64,000 nt of DNA from positions 1 through 64,000 of the forward strand of contig CAMOIJ010000008.1 in NCBI GenBank assembly GCA_946615865.1, read 5' to 3'. The notes beneath the pieces were generated by a model. It was not told the DNA's origin and made no database searches. It saw nothing but the letters and a program-made list of their open reading frames with translations. Shown here in pieces: positions 51,946 to 60,859 of the stretch. The stretch's first letter is position 1. Every line of letters starts with the position of its first letter. The DNA comes from an uncultured Lachnospiraceae bacterium. GTDB lineage: Bacteria > Bacillota > Clostridia > Lachnospirales > Lachnospiraceae. The translations under genes were made by a program, and so were the position numbers.

Positions 51946-54900
51946 ATGTCAAACTTTGATTTCTTACAAGAAAGATTTCCCGTCCTTGCCAATTTCGGCA
52001 GCCTTGCGGAACAATACTGCTATTCAGATCCCAATTCTGCGCTCATAAAGTCAGGGATGATCGGAGAGACGATCGTCAACCTGATCTTCCGCTATGACCA
52101 TATTGAAGAGCCCTATGACAATACGGCTGTATACAGAATCGACAAGGTATACCGCGAAGGGCTGATCACAAAGGAGCTTTGCGATATCCTCCATACGCTC
52201 AGGAAAATGCGGAATAAAGCCGCACATGCGAATTACGGGACGGCTGAAGAGGCCAAGATGGTTCTGGAAATGGCCTATAGCCTTTGTGAATGGTTCATGC
52301 AGACATACGGCGATTGGGAATATAAGAACAGGCCATTCGTTATGCCTGCGGATCCCAAGACAGCTGTTCCTGTCACAGAAGAGATAAAGAAGGAAGAAAA
52401 GAGCAGGGAAGAGCAGCTCATCCTTGAGGCGGAACGCACCGCAGACGCTGCAGAGAAGGTCGATCCTGATATAAGGAAAGAAAGATCTAAGAAAGCGGCA
52501 AACCAAAGAATACGCCCTGAAGCAGAGACACGTTTACTGATCGACGAGCAGCTTCGCCAGGTCGGATGGGAAGCGGACACTTCAAATCTCCGTCATTCCA
52601 AAGGTACGCGTCCCGAAAAAGGCAGGAACATGGCGATTGCGGAATGGCCTACGGACTCTACTGTAGGAGACAGGGGCTTTGTTGACTACGCGCTCTTTAT
52701 CGATACAAAGATGGTCGCCACAGTGGAGGCGAAAGCGGAACATAAAGACATCCCGTCAGTGATAGACTTTCAATGTAAGGATTATTCCCGGAACATCCGC
52801 AAAAAGGACTACGAGTACCAGATCGATACATGGGGAGAGTTCAAGGTCCCCTTTACTTTTGCCACGAACGGACGGCCTTACCTCAAGCAGTATGAGACAA
52901 AATCCGGCGTCTGGTTCCTTGACCTGAGACGGCCTGACAATGCGCCTAAGGCTCTGCACGGATGGATCAGCCCGATCGGCATCAGTGAACTCATGGAAAA
53001 AGATCCGGTTGCAGGGAACAACCGTCTCGTTGCGACGCCCTACGACCTGCTCCAGGACCCGGACGGGCTGGCGCTGAGGGATTACCAGATCAAAGCAATC
53101 AAAGCTGTAGAGAATGCCATTTTCGAAGGAAAGCAGACGGCTCTTCTTGCCATGGCAACAGGAACCGGAAAGACAAGGACTGTACTTGGCATGATCTACC
53201 GTTTCCTGCAGTCGGACAGGTTCCGCAGGATCCTGTTCCTTGTCGACCGCACATCCCTTGGAGAACAGGCGGAGGACGTGTTTAAAGAGGTAAGGCTGGA
53301 AGACCTCAAAACCCTCGATAATATCTACAATATCAAAGATCTTGAGGAGTCTGTGATCGACAAGGAGACGCGGGTCCAGATCGCGACCGTCCAGAGCATG
53401 GTCAAACGCATCCTTTACAATGACGGTGAGAAAATGCCGGCGGTAACGGACTATGACCTCGTGATCATCGATGAGGCGCACCGCGGGTACATCCTTGACA
53501 AGGAAATGGATGAAACGGAAGCGCTGTACCGCGACCAGCATGATTTCCAGAGCAAGTACCGCAGCGTCGTCGAGTATTTTGACGCCGTGAAGATCGCGAT
53601 CACTGCTACGCCCGCACTGCACACGACGGAGATCTTCGGGCCGCCCGTTTTCACATATACATATGCGGAAGCCGTCATTGACGGCTGGCTTGTCGACCAC
53701 GATGTCCCGCATGAGCTCCATACAAAGCTCCGTGATGAGGGGATCCATTATACGAAGGGTGACGATATCGTCCTCTATGATCCGGTGACCGGACAGATCC
53801 TCAACAGTGAGATGCTGGAGGATGAGCTCAACTTTGACGTCGACAATTTCAACAAACAGGTCATTACGGAGGGCTTCAACAGGGCAGTCCTTGAAGAGAT
53901 TGCAAGGGATATCGACCCGACCAGCCCGGATATACAGGGAAAGACGCTGATCTATGCTGTGGATGACCAGCATGCCGATATGATCGTCAAGATTCTGAAA
54001 GAGATTTATTCGGAGTCGGGAGTGGACAATGACGCGATCATGAAGATCACGGGCAGTGTCGGTGGCGGCAACAAAAAGAAAATCCGGGAAGCGATCAACC
54101 GCTTCAAGAACGAGACTTATCCGAGTATAGTGGTGACGGTAGACCTTCTGACGACAGGCATTGACGTGCCGAGCATCACGACGCTTGTCTTCATGCGGCG
54201 GATCAGGAGCCGTATCCTTTTCGAGCAGATGCTGGGAAGGGCGACCAGGCTCTGCCCCGAGATCCATAAGACACATTTTGATATCTATGACCCGGTCGGC
54301 GTCTATGAGTCACTCGCAGACGTCAATACGATGAAGCCCGTCGTCGCTAATCCGAAAGCGACCTTTGAAGAGCTGCTGGACGGGCTTGATGAGATGGACG
54401 ATGAGCGCCATATGCAGTACCAGATCGACCAGATCGTCGCAAAGCTGCAGCGCCGCAGAAGGAGCATGGATGAAAAGACCATGGAACACTTTATGAGCAT
54501 GACCGGCGGCAAGGACCCTGCTGAGGTCGCGTCAGAAGTCAAGCATGCGGACCCGGAAACGGCAAGGGAAAAACTGCGCGCATACAGGGATGCCCTGAAA
54601 TGGCTGCAGGAGATCCGGATCAACCGGAACAGGGCAGTCGTCATCTCCGAAGAAGAGGATGAGCTCGTATCCCACACACGCGGATATGGCAAAGGGGAGA
54701 AGCCGGAGGATTATCTGCAGTCCTTTGAGACCTTTATCAAGACGCACCTTAACGAGATCGCAGCCCTGAATATCGTGTGCACAAGGCCGCGCGAGCTTAC
54801 GAGGGAGGCCCTCAAGGAACTAAGGCTCACGCTTGAGAGGGAGGGCTTTACAGCGACACGGCTCAACACGGCTGTATCACAGATGACAAATGAAGAGATG

Positions 54901-55218
54901 ACGGCGGATATCATCAGCCTGATCCGGCGCTACGCGATCGGCAGTCCCCTGCAGAGCCATGAGACGAGGGTGAAGAATGCGATACAGAAATTAAAGCGGG
55001 CACACCGCTTCTCAAAGCAGGAACTGAACTGGATCGACAGGATCGGGACATACCTTCTCAACGAGTCCGTCATCAGCACAAAGGTGTTTGACGAGGACGT
55101 TAGGTTCCGGTCACAGGGCGGATACGCAAGGATCAACAAAGCATTTCACGATCAGCTGGACAGCATTATCGCTGAGCTGAACGATTATCTGTATGATGAT
55201 GGAGGAAAGACAGCATGA
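51946..55218 (+). CDS. hsdR: Type I restriction endonuclease subunit R
   Basis: TVEAKAEHKDI nuclease region, MATGTGKTRT, IIDEAHRGY, ITATPALHT, LLTTGIDVPSI, QMLGRATRL; N-terminal DUF4145-like RKMRNKAAHANYG. Confidence 0.96.
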   Translation: MSNFDFLQERFPVLANFGSLAEQYCYSDPNSALIKSGMIGETIVNLIFRYDHIEEPYDNTAVYRIDKVYREGLITKELCDILHTLRKMRNKAAHANYGTAEEAKMVLEMAYSLCEWFMQTYGDWEYKNRPFVMPADPKTAVPVTEEIKKEEKSREEQLILEAERTADAAEKVDPDIRKERSKKAANQRIRPEAETRLLIDEQLRQVGWEADTSNLRHSKGTRPEKGRNMAIAEWPTDSTVGDRGFVDYALFIDTKMVATVEAKAEHKDIPSVIDFQCKDYSRNIRKKDYEYQIDTWGEFKVPFTFATNGRPYLKQYETKSGVWFLDLRRPDNAPKALHGWISPIGISELMEKDPVAGNNRLVATPYDLLQDPDGLALRDYQIKAIKAVENAIFEGKQTALLAMATGTGKTRTVLGMIYRFLQSDRFRRILFLVDRTSLGEQAEDVFKEVRLEDLKTLDNIYNIKDLEESVIDKETRVQIATVQSMVKRILYNDGEKMPAVTDYDLVIIDEAHRGYILDKEMDETEALYRDQHDFQSKYRSVVEYFDAVKIAITATPALHTTEIFGPPVFTYTYAEAVIDGWLVDHDVPHELHTKLRDEGIHYTKGDDIVLYDPVTGQILNSEMLEDELNFDVDNFNKQVITEGFNRAVLEEIARDIDPTSPDIQGKTLIYAVDDQHADMIVKILKEIYSESGVDNDAIMKITGSVGGGNKKKIREAINRFKNETYPSIVVTVDLLTTGIDVPSITTLVFMRRIRSRILFEQMLGRATRLCPEIHKTHFDIYDPVGVYESLADVNTMKPVVANPKATFEELLDGLDEMDDERHMQYQIDQIVAKLQRRRRSMDEKTMEHFMSMTGGKDPAEVASEVKHADPETAREKLRAYRDALKWLQEIRINRNRAVVISEEEDELVSHTRGYGKGEKPEDYLQSFETFIKTHLNEIAALNIVCTRPRELTREALKELRLTLEREGFTATRLNTAVSQMTNEEMTADIISLIRRYAIGSPLQSHETRVKNAIQKLKRAHRFSKQELNWIDRIGTYLLNESVISTKVFDEDVRFRSQGGYARINKAFHDQLDSIIAELNDYLYDDGGKTA

Positions 55219-56711
55219 CAACACAGGAGATTGTCTCAAAACTATGGAACCTATGCAACGTTCTGCGGGACGACGGCATTACATACCACCAGTATGTTAC
55301 GGAGCTGACCTATATTCTGTTCCTGAAGATGGCAAATGAGACCGGCGCGGAGGAGAATTTCTCCAAAGGGGTTACGCTCCTTGAAGGAGACAATCTGACT
55401 GCCGACCAGGAAGCAGCGAACAACGAGAAAAAGATAGTGCTTGACTACAGCTGGGAGACGCTCTGCGGGAAATCCGGCATCGAGCTGCATAAATACTATA
55501 AGGACCTCCTGAGACTCTTTGGCACATACTGCACTGGCCGCGTGCGGGAGATCTACCAGGGGTCTTCGACAAACATTGATGAGCCGAAGAACCTTGAAAA
55601 GATCATCACGACGATCGACGGCCTGGACTGGTTCTCCGCCCGTGAAGAGGGCCTTGGAAACCTGTACGAGGGGCTTCTGGAGAAGAATGCGAACGAGAAG
55701 AAATCCGGCGCCGGGCAGTACTTTACTCCCCGTGTCCTGATCGACGTTATTACCCGCCTGACGAAACCGCAGCCGGGAGAGCTGTGCAATGACCCTGCGT
55801 GCGGTACGTTCGGTTTCATGATCGCGGCACATCAGTATGTGAAAGACCATACCGATGATTTCTTTGACCTTGACGCGGATACAGCGGAGTTTGAAAGGAC
55901 GAAGGCCTTTACCGGTTGCGAGCTCGTACATGATACACACCGTCTGGCGCTGATGAACGCCATGCTCCATGATATCGACGGGAAGATCCTGCTCGGGGAT
56001 ACGCTTTCCAACCTCGGAAAGAGTATGAAGGGTTATGACCTCGTCGAAACGAACCCTCCATTCGGTACGAAAAAGGGAGGAGAACGGGCGACCCGTGACG
56101 ACTTTACCTTCCCTACCAGCAACAAACAGCTGAACTTCCTGCAGCACATATACAGGAGCCTCAAGTCGAACGGAAAAGCAAGAGCTGCTGTGGTCCTTCC
56201 TGACAATGTACTGTTTGCGGACGGTGAAGGCGAGAGGATCCGCGTTGACCTCATGGACAAGTGTGACCTGCACACAGTTCTTCGTCTTCCTACAGGCATC
56301 TTCTATGCTCAGGGCGTTAAGACAAATGTGCTGTTCTTTACCCGCGGAAAAACCGACAAGGGCAACACGAAGGAAGTCTGGTTCTATGACCTCAGGACCA
56401 ACATGCCCTCCTTCGGCAAGACGAACCCGCTGAAGAAAAGTGATTTCGAAAGCTTTGAGGCAGCGTATGAAGCAGAGGACCGTCATGCTGTAAGCGATGA
56501 ACGCTGGAGCGTATTTACCCGTGAACAGATCGCGGAAAGGGGCAACAGCCTGGACCTCGGCCTCATCCGTGACGACTCCATCGTAGATTATGAGGACCTG
56601 CCGGATCCCATCGAGAGCGGCGAGGAGGCGATCGCGCAGCTTGAAGAGGCCGTCGACCTTCTCATGAGTGTGGTGAAGGAGCTGAAATCCCTCCGGAAGA
56701 CGGAGGTGTGA
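55215..56711 (+). CDS. hsdM: Type I restriction-modification methyltransferase subunit M
   Basis: GAGQYFTPRVLIDVITRL, NDPACGTFGFMIAAHQYV, VETNPPFG (NPPF). Confidence 0.97.
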   Translation: MTTQEIVSKLWNLCNVLRDDGITYHQYVTELTYILFLKMANETGAEENFSKGVTLLEGDNLTADQEAANNEKKIVLDYSWETLCGKSGIELHKYYKDLLRLFGTYCTGRVREIYQGSSTNIDEPKNLEKIITTIDGLDWFSAREEGLGNLYEGLLEKNANEKKSGAGQYFTPRVLIDVITRLTKPQPGELCNDPACGTFGFMIAAHQYVKDHTDDFFDLDADTAEFERTKAFTGCELVHDTHRLALMNAMLHDIDGKILLGDTLSNLGKSMKGYDLVETNPPFGTKKGGERATRDDFTFPTSNKQLNFLQHIYRSLKSNGKARAAVVLPDNVLFADGEGERIRVDLMDKCDLHTVLRLPTGIFYAQGVKTNVLFFTRGKTDKGNTKEVWFYDLRTNMPSFGKTNPLKKSDFESFEAAYEAEDRHAVSDERWSVFTREQIAERGNSLDLGLIRDDSIVDYEDLPDPIESGEEAIAQLEEAVDLLMSVVKELKSLRKTEV

Positions 56712-58042
56712 TCATGGTGCGCGGAAAGAAGAAAGAAAAGATATTGACGCCGGAAAAGAAACTGCGGCAGGCACTGGTGCCGGAGAGTGAGTGGCCGTAC
56801 AAGGTGCCGGGAAATTGGCGGTGGGTGTATTTGACAAGTGGTTTTTCAGAATGTTTGGACAGCCATAGAAGCCCAATTAATGCAAGTGAACGCGCCAGTA
56901 GAACAGGTGATATTCCATATTACGGAGCAACAGGGCAAGTTGGATGGATAGACGATTATCTTACGGATGAAGAACTTGTTTTGCTAGGTGAAGATGGGGC
57001 TCCCTTTTTAGATTTGATCAAGGATAAAGCGTATATTATTACCGGGAAAGCGTGGGTTAATAACCATGCACATATCTTAAAATCTTATTTTGGTCACTTT
57101 GGAAACCTATATCTGTGCAACTACCTCAACATATTCAACTTTACAGGATATGTTAATGGAACTACGAGACTAAAACTAACACAAGCAAGTATGAACACAA
57201 TTCCTGTTCCCCTCCCTCCTCTCCCAGAACAACAGCGTATTGTCGACCGCATCGAGAGCCTATTTGAAAAATTGGATGAGGCGAAAGAAAAAGCGCAGGC
57301 GGTCGTGGACGGATTTGAGGACAGGAAAGCGGCGATCCTGCATAAGGCGTTCACGGGGGAGCTTACAGAAGTTTGGCGCAATGAAAATGGTCTTGATTTT
57401 GATAGTTGGAAAGATACAACGCTAAATGAGGTTCTAGATGTGCGAGATGGAACACATGATTCTCCTCAATACTATGAAGAAGGATTCCCGCTTGTCACCT
57501 CAAAAAATCTTAAGAATGGCAAAATCACGGACAAAGATATTAAGCTTATCTCAAAAGATGATTATGAGAAGATTAATGAAAGAAGTAAAGTTGATGTTGG
57601 AGATATCCTGTTTGCAATGATTGGTACTATTGGAAGTCCAGTTGTTGTTGAACAAGAGCCTACTTTTGCTATAAAGAATGTCGCATTATTTAAGAACATT
57701 GGGAAAGTTGATTCTTACTTTATAAAATACTATCTCGAAAGCAAAACTGTTATAAATAAAATGATAAGAGAGGCAAGGGGATCAACTCAAAAGTTTGTTT
57801 CCTTAGGTTATCTTAGAAACTTTCCTATCAAAATGCCGTCAGATTGTGAGCAGAAAGCTATTGTCAACCATGTTAATCGGCTTTTAGAAGCAGAGGTACA
57901 AGTAAAGGAAATTGCCAAGCAGGTCATCACCCAGATCGACACCATGAAGAAGTCCATCCTCGCCCGCGCCTTTCGCGGCGAACTTGGGACAAATGATTCT
58001 TCCGACGAGAGCGCGGAAGAACTGCTGAAAAGAATACTGTAA
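56708..58042 (+). CDS. hsdS: Type I restriction-modification specificity subunit S
   Basis: Two TRD halves with LPPLPEQQRIVDRIESLFEKLDEAKEKAQ and C-terminal KKSILARAFRGELGTND...SAEELLKRIL. Confidence 0.95.
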   Translation: MIMVRGKKKEKILTPEKKLRQALVPESEWPYKVPGNWRWVYLTSGFSECLDSHRSPINASERASRTGDIPYYGATGQVGWIDDYLTDEELVLLGEDGAPFLDLIKDKAYIITGKAWVNNHAHILKSYFGHFGNLYLCNYLNIFNFTGYVNGTTRLKLTQASMNTIPVPLPPLPEQQRIVDRIESLFEKLDEAKEKAQAVVDGFEDRKAAILHKAFTGELTEVWRNENGLDFDSWKDTTLNEVLDVRDGTHDSPQYYEEGFPLVTSKNLKNGKITDKDIKLISKDDYEKINERSKVDVGDILFAMIGTIGSPVVVEQEPTFAIKNVALFKNIGKVDSYFIKYYLESKTVINKMIREARGSTQKFVSLGYLRNFPIKMPSDCEQKAIVNHVNRLLEAEVQVKEIAKQVITQIDTMKKSILARAFRGELGTNDSSDESAEELLKRIL

Positions 58043-58300
58043 AACAAGAGGATGGTAGTGCCTGGAAAAGTTTGCTACCATCATATTATTATAGAAGTCC
58101 TTGTAATGTAATGGAGCATCAGCAGTATTACTGTCTAAGGCATTTTGCGGTGCCTTATAATAAAGCATAGGAAGAAGGGGGTACTTGAACAACCACTCGA
58201 TAACAGTCATGAGTGGTATTTAATCCAGAATTGAAGATATGCGTAATCGTATGATTATTATCATGACTAAGTATTATGATTTAGGAAGAATAGAGGCATC

Positions 58301-58750
58301 ATGAAGACCATAGCACTGCGCTTTGCAGACCATTTTGCTCCCGAATGCGGTACCATTGCAGCTCACGAACAAGTTATAAAAAAGATTGGGCATGTATGGT
58401 ATGGAAAACTGGGGAACAAAGTGTCCGATAAAATGCTTAAAACAATTATGGATGCAGAGGAGCCAAAGATACTTCTGATTCGGAGTGGTAAGGTAGAGAG
58501 ATATTGGGCCTATGTGTGTAAGGCTCAAAATGAACTGCCGGATTTAAATGAAGTACCGATGTATTACCGGAATAATCATGAAAAATTTCATACATGGTTT
58601 TGCGTGACTCGATTTGACAATGCACCGAAGAGTATCATGTCTGAATGCATCGTAACCTCATCTGGAGCATTATTGGGGCATGCATCCAAATATAGCATGA
58701 GTCCATATTTTATAATTGAAACAAAGAGTCAATATGAAAACAGTAAGTGA
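58301..58750 (+). CDS. Hypothetical protein (149 aa), possible partner of the HEPN-like gene
   Basis: ORF overlapping the next gene by 17 bp when that gene starts at 58734. Confidence 0.6.
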   Translation: MKTIALRFADHFAPECGTIAAHEQVIKKIGHVWYGKLGNKVSDKMLKTIMDAEEPKILLIRSGKVERYWAYVCKAQNELPDLNEVPMYYRNNHEKFHTWFCVTRFDNAPKSIMSECIVTSSGALLGHASKYSMSPYFIIETKSQYENSK

Positions 58751-59300
58751 AAAAGATTTTGAAGAGAGAATGTTGCGGATTCGAAGCGTTTTGAGAAATG
58801 CCTGGATTGATACATATGGCCTAGATGTAATTGACTCTTACATTAAAGACGTTGAAAAGGAGCATATGATTGATGGACATTTTGTATCAATACTAAACCA
58901 TTATAGGAAATTGATGCAGTATGACCTTTGTCTATCCGTAACGAGGATGTATGAAACTACAGGCAATAATTCGCTAAGAAATATACAGGCCATTGCTATT
59001 GGATTTAGAACTGGGAACTGGGGAAAGTTTCCAACGGTATCATTACCTGCATTGAAAAAAGCTGAAGCATATAGAAATAGTTATTTGGCGCATTTGGACG
59101 TTGAGGTTTCATCAACACCGATTACAAATGATGACATGACACAACTTTTGAAATCTGCAACAGCTTTTTACAATAGTATCTGTATCAATGTCAGCAAACC
59201 AGAATGGGCTCTGTCAGATAATGAATTGAACCTTTTACATTTGCAGCGATATTTTGATTTTATTGACGTTCTTCAACAGCATATTAAAGATAAAGAATGA
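58734..59300 (+). CDS. HEPN-like (AbiU2-like) protein
   Basis: All-helical; EAYRNSYLAHLDVEV carries an R-N-x4-H arrangement (RNSYLAH) as in HEPN RNases; ATG at 58734. Confidence 0.6.
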   Translation: MKTVSEKDFEERMLRIRSVLRNAWIDTYGLDVIDSYIKDVEKEHMIDGHFVSILNHYRKLMQYDLCLSVTRMYETTGNNSLRNIQAIAIGFRTGNWGKFPTVSLPALKKAEAYRNSYLAHLDVEVSSTPITNDDMTQLLKSATAFYNSICINVSKPEWALSDNELNLLHLQRYFDFIDVLQQHIKDKE

Positions 59301-59407: not shown

Positions 59408-59474
59408 TTGTCCATAGAAACAAAATGATTTTGTGACAAAAGAGCAGAAGAACTGCTGAAGAGAATACTGTAAA
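59408..59474 (+). pseudogene. Relic of an hsdS 3' end
   Basis: aaaagagcagaagaactgctgaagagaatactgtaa reads KRAEELLKRIL*, matching HsdS C-terminus SAEELLKRIL* at 58012-58042. Confidence 0.75.
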
Positions 59475-59491
59475 TTCACAGGAGGAATAAG

Positions 59492-59956
59492 ATGGGTGTT
59501 TCGTTCAGGCATTCCGCAGGGTTCGGAAAAAGAATGGAATATAATCTGATCGGGAAAATGCTTATGGAAGGCCTGGATGTGTACGTCCCGCTCGTAGACG
59601 ACCACGGTGTCGACTGTGTTATTAAGAAAGATGACGGGACTTTTATCGAGGTTCAGATCAAGGCGCGGTCCAGCGAAGTCACTGAGGGTGACGCCGCCCT
59701 GTTTTCGGCTATAACACATGATCTGACAGAAAATTTCTATTTTGTGTTCTATTCCGAGCGGCTGGATATGATGTGGATCCTGTCGTCTGATGAATTCCTT
59801 AAAGAGTGCGTGACGAACAAGACAGGGAAGAATAAGGGTAAACGAGGGATCTGGTTCAACGGAAACAGAAGGGATAAGCAGACCGGCATCAAGAAGGAAT
59901 ACTGCAAAAAGCAGTTTGAGAAGTATATCGAGAAGGATTTTTCCCGGTTTCATTGA
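59492..59956 (+). CDS. PD-(D/E)XK nuclease-like protein (DUF4365-like)
   Basis: DDHGVDCVIKKDDGTFIEVQIKAR (D...ExQxK); RBS aggaggaa. Confidence 0.65.
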   Translation: MGVSFRHSAGFGKRMEYNLIGKMLMEGLDVYVPLVDDHGVDCVIKKDDGTFIEVQIKARSSEVTEGDAALFSAITHDLTENFYFVFYSERLDMMWILSSDEFLKECVTNKTGKNKGKRGIWFNGNRRDKQTGIKKEYCKKQFEKYIEKDFSRFH

Positions 59957-60004: not shown

Positions 60005-60859
60005 ATGTATAAGAATGCTGCGGTCAGACATATTAAATTCGGAAAGGGAGCGGTAACAAAGATTGTTAACGGTTCCAACTGCAGATTTATAAAAGTTAAA
60101 TTCAAAAGCAAAGAAGTCCAGTTTATATTCCCAGACGCATTTGAAAAGCATCTTCGTTTTGAAGACGAGAAACTGCAGGCGGCAGTCATGAAAGAATTGC
60201 GCGGCGAAGAAATAACGCAGGCACCGGTGAGACAGAGTGTGTCTACAGAAAGCAGCCATACATTAACAGGAAACAGACCAAAGTCATCGAAAAGAGCTGC
60301 CCCATCGAGGATCGGAGTGTATATTCTAAACTTTCAGGGACCATCAACATACGACGACTTAGTGTGGGTTTATAATGACTGTGACAAAAAGACGAATCTG
60401 GAAGAACTGTTTGAGGACGCTGAGACTGGCACGACATGCTGGAGTGTACCAACTTATGCCGGGATCGGTGATACCGTTCTGTTTATGCTCGCCTCTTCAT
60501 CAATCGACACGTACCATATGAACGGGGCCGTCAACGAAGCCGCTGAATTGTCGGACTGGAAGATATATGAGTTCGGCAAAGCGGAGAGAGAAAAGTACAG
60601 AAAATACGCTGGAAAGATCTTATGCGTTGGAAAAATCACTGGCTTTTCAAAAGAAGATGAGCCAGATGAGGAATTCAACCAGAGGCTGATCTATGCGGAT
60701 ATCGGAAATCTTCAGATGCTGGAAAATCCAGTCCCTCTAAAAGATTTCAGGGATTTCATTAATATAAACAGATTCTGGTCTGTGACAAGTTTGAAACAGG
60801 AGCAATGGGATAAGCTGAAGAAACTGTTGGTGTTAAGAAATCCTGATATTAGATTGTAA
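60005..60859 (+). CDS. Protein with N-terminal HxxFGxG-type small beta domain and C-terminal PUA/EVE-like region
   Basis: VRHIKFGKGAVTKIVNG...FIFPDAFEKHL; CWSVPTYAGIGDTVLFMLASS...GKILCVGKITGFS. Confidence 0.5.
   Translation: MYKNAAVRHIKFGKGAVTKIVNGSNCRFIKVKFKSKEVQFIFPDAFEKHLRFEDEKLQAAVMKELRGEEITQAPVRQSVSTESSHTLTGNRPKSSKRAAPSRIGVYILNFQGPSTYDDLVWVYNDCDKKTNLEELFEDAETGTTCWSVPTYAGIGDTVLFMLASSSIDTYHMNGAVNEAAELSDWKIYEFGKAEREKYRKYAGKILCVGKITGFSKEDEPDEEFNQRLIYADIGNLQMLENPVPLKDFRDFININRFWSVTSLKQEQWDKLKKLLVLRNPDIRL

Follow-up and report, generated by a model that had tools for sequence, protein, structure and literature searches.

The window, i.e., the whole stretch of DNA that was analysed, comprised 64,000 nt of an uncultured Lachnospiraceae bacterium (contig CAMOIJ010000008.1 of assembly GCA_946615865.1). 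The following features were located in it.

51946..55218, + strand: hsdR, EcoEI type, with an N-terminal DUF4145 (HEPN-like) domain (PF08463, 135.6 bits; PF13643, 24.2 bits at a cut-off of 23.1; NF008521, 1381 bits)
55215..56711, + strand: hsdM, N6-adenine DNA methyltransferase (PF02384, 242.6 bits; PF12161)
56708..58042, + strand: hsdS, specificity subunit (PF01420, 92.6 bits, in two stretches)
57989..58052, + strand: hsdS 3' tail, copy 1 of a direct repeat (repeat search, pair of 64-nt copies)
58301..58750, + strand: Pua-like gene, 149 aa, predicted modified-nucleic-acid reader with a YTH/EVE-like fold (PF24405, 45 bits at a cut-off of 27; AlphaFold2 pLDDT 82.5; weak Foldseek matches)
58734..59300, + strand: HEPN gene, AbiU2-like, 188 aa, predicted RNase effector with R114-x5-H120 (PF18734, 24.1 bits at a cut-off of 26.8; 73% identity to the homologue in genome G235)
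59420..59483, + strand: orphan copy 2 of the hsdS 3' tail, 75% identical, bounding the inserted stretch on its downstream side (repeat search; same arrangement in genome G233)

According to profile searches, the hsdR, hsdM and hsdS genes upstream of the Pua-like/HEPN pair constituted a complete type I restriction-modification (R-M) system of the EcoEI type. The two overlapping plus-strand ORFs reported in the preliminary description were both present, and their overlap covered 17 bp (58734-58750). The HEPN ORF encoded 188 aa when read from ATG and 194 aa when read from TTG at position 58716. The pair had been described as lying inside the R-M locus; this was true in the sense that it formed an appendage behind hsdS, which itself was not interrupted. 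Because 258 bp separated the end of hsdS from the start of the Pua-like gene, co-transcription of hsdS with the module is not assured. In this gap, no RNA family was found, and there was no promoter or terminator beyond chance expectation. Both ORFs could be regarded as genes rather than chance ORFs, since homologues were present in sister species (73% identity for HEPN in G235 and 52% for the Pua-like protein in G233) and the dN/dS ratios were about 0.10 for HEPN (against G235) and about 0.21 for the Pua-like gene, values that are approximate because dS was saturated.

Several other proteins of the locus deserve mention. The DUF4145 domain of HsdR (51946-52350) carried the sequence RNKAAH, a HEPN-type Rx4H motif, so that a further HEPN-like domain was encoded in the locus as a fused part of the restriction subunit; the HsdR of G233 also gave a weak HepT-like match. 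After the orphan hsdS tail, a 154-aa protein (59492-59956) with weak PDDEXK_5/DUF4365/Mrr_cat similarity was encoded, which is possibly another nuclease of the island. A 284-aa protein (60005-60859) had no significant match in Pfam, NCBIfam or PADLOC; its C-terminal part appeared EVE-like by eye, and comparing it with the Pua-like family by profile returned nothing.

The 149-aa protein had been described as a protein of unknown fold, which proved to be wrong. It passed the cut-off of the PF24405 "Pua-like" family with 45.0 bits (E = 1.3e-11); the match spanned residues 6-120 and profile positions 3-129 of 176, the last quarter of the profile being absent. The protein also resembled the N-terminal 115 positions of the model for DS9_1, an anti-phage phosphoesterase. 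Ten members of the Pua-like family shared a helix with T-I-x-x-H followed by V-W-[WY], as well as P-x-Y-Y. The AlphaFold2 model, built from four relatives, had a mean pLDDT of 82.5 and alternating strands and helices. When this model was submitted to Foldseek, YTH domains dominated the top of the list, and the N-terminal domain of an archaeal McrB (6p0f) and the EVE protein 2eve were among the first eight; these matches were weak (E of 0.06-0.2, TM of about 0.3-0.4), and none had E < 0.001. When the profile of the Pua-like family was compared with a single YTH sequence, that of YTHDC1 (an exact match to PDB chains), nothing was found, and PDB sequence searches with the Pua-like and HEPN families gave no notable match. 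The model thus suggests a relation to YTH/EVE domains by fold only. YTH domains are readers of N6-methyladenosine.

The distribution of the two genes was studied. Across 62 genomes representing the genus, the HEPN gene was detected in two, one of them that of the window, and the Pua-like gene in three, again including that of the window. Both genes were also rare in the class and in the family (about 400 genomes each). A set of 289 genomes of the phylum added only a McrB fusion of the Pua-like domain, and plasmid records contained only Pua-calcineurin fusions, in alphaproteobacteria. No match was obtained by tblastn with the HEPN protein against plasmids and phages or with the Pua-like protein against phages. 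HEPN profile matches in two further genomes, G552 and G546, were rejected as spurious (a UvrD-type helicase and a frame with four stops). The intact pairing of the two genes was found only once, in the window.

A counterpart of the locus was contig C81 of G233, which carried an R-M system of the same type (HsdR 71%, HsdM 84% and HsdS 37% identical) and, 10 bp after hsdS, a Pua-like gene (52% identical) with no HEPN gene. On another contig of the same genome (C139), a Pua-like gene was flanked by hsdS and an EcoR124-type hsdR, and in G740 (C95), such a gene lay directly behind a HindI-type hsdR, the contig ending inside the Pua-like gene. In G257, the Pua-like gene adjoined a D12 adenine methyltransferase gene and two EcoRV-type endonuclease genes; at this locus (L012, 3647-5481), the endonuclease genes were in tandem, opposite the methyltransferase gene and the Pua-like gene, whose product had a cysteine-rich C-terminal tail. 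In G914, PF24405 formed the N-terminal part of a McrB-like AAA protein (L030, 8579-10243; 33.6 bits, above the cut-off), followed by a McrC-like nuclease; the cluster was BREX-like and also encoded PglZ, a DNA methylase and an SNF2 helicase. PF24405 is here at the reader position of type IV restriction. A gene for a Pua-calcineurin fusion with an HAD gene, the layout of the DS-9 system, was located right behind hsdS in G452. Of the remaining loci, that of G775 was DS-9-like, that of G828 encoded Pua-calcineurin alone, with no R-M genes in the stretch read around either, and that of G105 was at a contig end. At one DS-9-like locus (L025, 6062-7584), the Pua-like and calcineurin parts were in separate frames and perhaps represent a broken or split fusion. 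Because only about 0.7% of these genomes falls within 5 kb of an N6 methyltransferase, the link of the Pua-like gene to R-M is far from chance, albeit in a small sample.

DS-9 is an experimentally validated metallophosphatase and HAD system, in the description of which the word PUA does not appear (PMC13092281; NCBIfam NF053862). The first protein of DS-9-like loci starts with PF24405, and the G452 locus shares the position behind hsdS. In the window, however, the Pua-like domain stands alone beside HEPN, with neither a calcineurin phosphatase nor an HAD protein. Membership of the locus in DS-9 was rejected, given that the 149-aa protein ended after the Pua-like domain and the next gene encoded HEPN rather than a phosphatase or HAD protein.

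The surroundings of the pair indicated how it might have been acquired. The GC content, about 0.52 in hsdRM, was lowered to 0.35-0.40 over the later portion of hsdS, the Pua-like gene and HEPN and rose again past the second hsdS tail. The Pua-like gene of G233 was likewise flanked by copies of the hsdS tail (L011, 6360-6434 and 6909-6983, 80% identical). This arrangement suggests that the stretch may have entered by recombination at conserved hsdS sequence, with the old tail left behind, and HEPN would be an optional part of this cargo.

The only Pfam match of the 188-aa protein was to HEPN_AbiU2 (PF18734, E = 2.7e-5), with the best stretch over YRNSYLAHLD. This motif was present, as had been reported, and corresponded to R114-N-S-Y-L-A-H120, in agreement with the Rx4-6H motif of the HEPN superfamily; R and H were identical in the G235 homologue. 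The match fell 2.7 bits short of the cut-off (24.1 against 26.8 bits), and the G235 homologue scored 20.9 bits. The structure model was all helical, as proposed in the preliminary description; with only two sequences available, it reached a pLDDT of 47, a very low confidence that made it unusable for a fold search. The AbiU2-like HEPN assignment was thus borne out at the level of sequence, below the cut-off, and not by structure. The protein is probably an AbiU2-like HEPN, and its membership in the AbiU2 family itself is unproven.

It could be argued that this helical protein is not an active RNase and is instead an RNA-binding or regulatory subunit derived from HEPN, or a relic of hsdS recombination. 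The profile match below the threshold and the failed structure model would agree with this, and the module, which lies between two hsdS-tail copies in a low-GC stretch starting inside hsdS, may be a passenger of hsdS exchange. However, the R and H of the motif were retained in a relative with 73% identity, and a dN/dS of about 0.10 likewise points to a maintained protein, which makes an inactive HEPN very unlikely.

The relation between the two genes was considered on the basis of G235. The HEPN gene of this genome, 73% identical at the protein level, was located behind a different hsdS; comparison with the window gave a dN of 0.16 and a dS of 1.5. Upstream of it was a frameshifted remnant of the Pua-like gene (DNA alignment score of 77; 200 shuffles reached at most 66). 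Since the genes overlap in the window and a Pua-like remnant persists in G235, the sequences indicate that the common ancestor of the two copies already had Pua-like and HEPN as a pair. Near the G235 HEPN gene, a type I R-M system was also accompanied by a further PUA-superfamily member, namely a protein with PC4 and ASCH domains (L006, 5836-6525).

The preliminary description had left the choice between a toxin-antitoxin and a sensor-effector pair. In a type II toxin-antitoxin system, the Pua-like antitoxin would bind and silence the HEPN toxin, and the overlap would secure their co-expression. The 17-bp overlap with the non-HEPN gene in first place corresponds to a common antitoxin-toxin order, and HEPN proteins are the toxins of HEPN-MNT pairs (PMC7641770, PMC4621449). 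Against this, G235 retained an intact, conserved HEPN behind a broken Pua-like gene, where an antitoxin should have been kept intact with its toxin, and the Pua-like gene was found without HEPN in G233, G257 and G452 (in G740, the contig is cut within it). Because HEPN was tolerated and maintained in G235 without its Pua-like partner, a strict toxin-antitoxin relationship is argued against, and an obligate pair was set aside on this evidence. The decay of the Pua-like gene in G235 could be recent, so that this case is not proof against a toxin-antitoxin pair; such a pair was nevertheless considered unlikely. Since each gene occurs in relatives without an intact copy of the other, the sensor-effector option fits better.

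The same separability would also be expected if two independent accessory genes shared one R-M island. The R-M enzyme would then be assisted by the Pua-like protein, which might tune restriction or methylation or extend the enzyme's reach to modified DNA. HEPN would be an abortive-infection gene in its own right and would perhaps be kept inactive by HsdRMS, as PrrC is by the type Ic system PrrI (PMC3710099). Consistent with this explanation, G233 had the Pua-like gene in the equivalent position but no HEPN, Pua-like genes also occurred without HEPN next to R-M systems of other types, and the G235 HEPN lay behind a different hsdS with no intact Pua-like gene. However, the overlap in the window and the remnant in G235 trace back to a pairing in the ancestor of both copies, and independence of the two genes was therefore regarded as possible but rather doubtful.

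The preferred reading, tentative and given close to an even chance, is that a Pua-like reader and a HEPN RNase effector form an accessory module of the type I R-M locus. It starts from what was observed: the gene structure, the R-M context, the domain assignments by sequence, the repeated occurrence of the Pua-like domain with R-M and at the reader position of McrB and the separability of the genes. A reader function is suggested by the Pua-like family, the predicted fold and the McrB fusion in G914, an RNase function by the HEPN motif and profile match, and coupling of the two by the gene order. N6-methyladenine is the mark written by HsdM. As a YTH/EVE-type reader, the Pua-like protein would recognise modified bases, most plausibly N6-methyladenine, and would monitor DNA (or RNA) whose modification signals failed restriction or the presence of foreign methylated DNA. 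Its signal would license the HEPN protein, a putative metal-independent RNase related to the AbiU2 group, presumably through physical coupling; host or phage RNA would be cut, and the infection would be aborted. HEPN would in this way act as a second line of defence, much as PrrC does with EcoPrrI. The earlier suggestion that the module may guard against R-M inactivation is reasonable by analogy with PrrC, and the Pua-like gene was repeatedly found at R-M loci.

Parts of this arrangement have precedents. R-M operons with AbiU2 HEPN genes were already tabulated in 2013 (PMC3710099); the window shares with them the match over the catalytic motif of PF18734 and the R-M neighbourhood known for the family, and differs in its score just under the cut-off and in its Pua-like partner, whereas Sel1-repeat partners and R-M operons are given in the table of that paper. 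PrrC, a second line of defence for the type I system PrrI (PMC3710099), is likewise a HEPN RNase encoded with type I R-M; its ABC-type NTPase sensor domain is fused to its HEPN, whereas in the window the putative sensor, the Pua-like protein, is encoded separately. Stand-alone EVE and ASCH readers, also of the PUA superfamily, occur with type I R-M and are encoded beside hsdRMS (PMC7641849), but PF24405 is another PUA-like family, and a HEPN partner is unmentioned there. CoCoNuT and other McrBC systems (PMC11090510) combine YTH/EVE-like readers with HEPN RNases, and PF24405 stands at the McrB N-terminus in G914; the module in the window, in contrast, lacks a McrB GTPase, a coiled coil and McrC. 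Neither a mention of PF24405 nor a description of its pairing with HEPN was found in the literature searched, which mostly excluded subscription journals.

A broader interpretation, speculative and somewhat improbable, is that PF24405 is a reader of N6-methyladenine or another modified base that has repeatedly been reused in bacterial immunity with varied effectors. These would include McrBC, the calcineurin-HAD pair of DS-9 and R-M systems of types I and II. In the window, the partner would be a HEPN RNase, and the two proteins, encoded together with the R-M enzyme, would make up an abortive system that senses modification. Should this hold, a single small reader domain would connect several defence systems without a known trigger, DS-9 included, and the pair in the window would provide a simple two-gene model for the passage from restriction failure to abortive infection.
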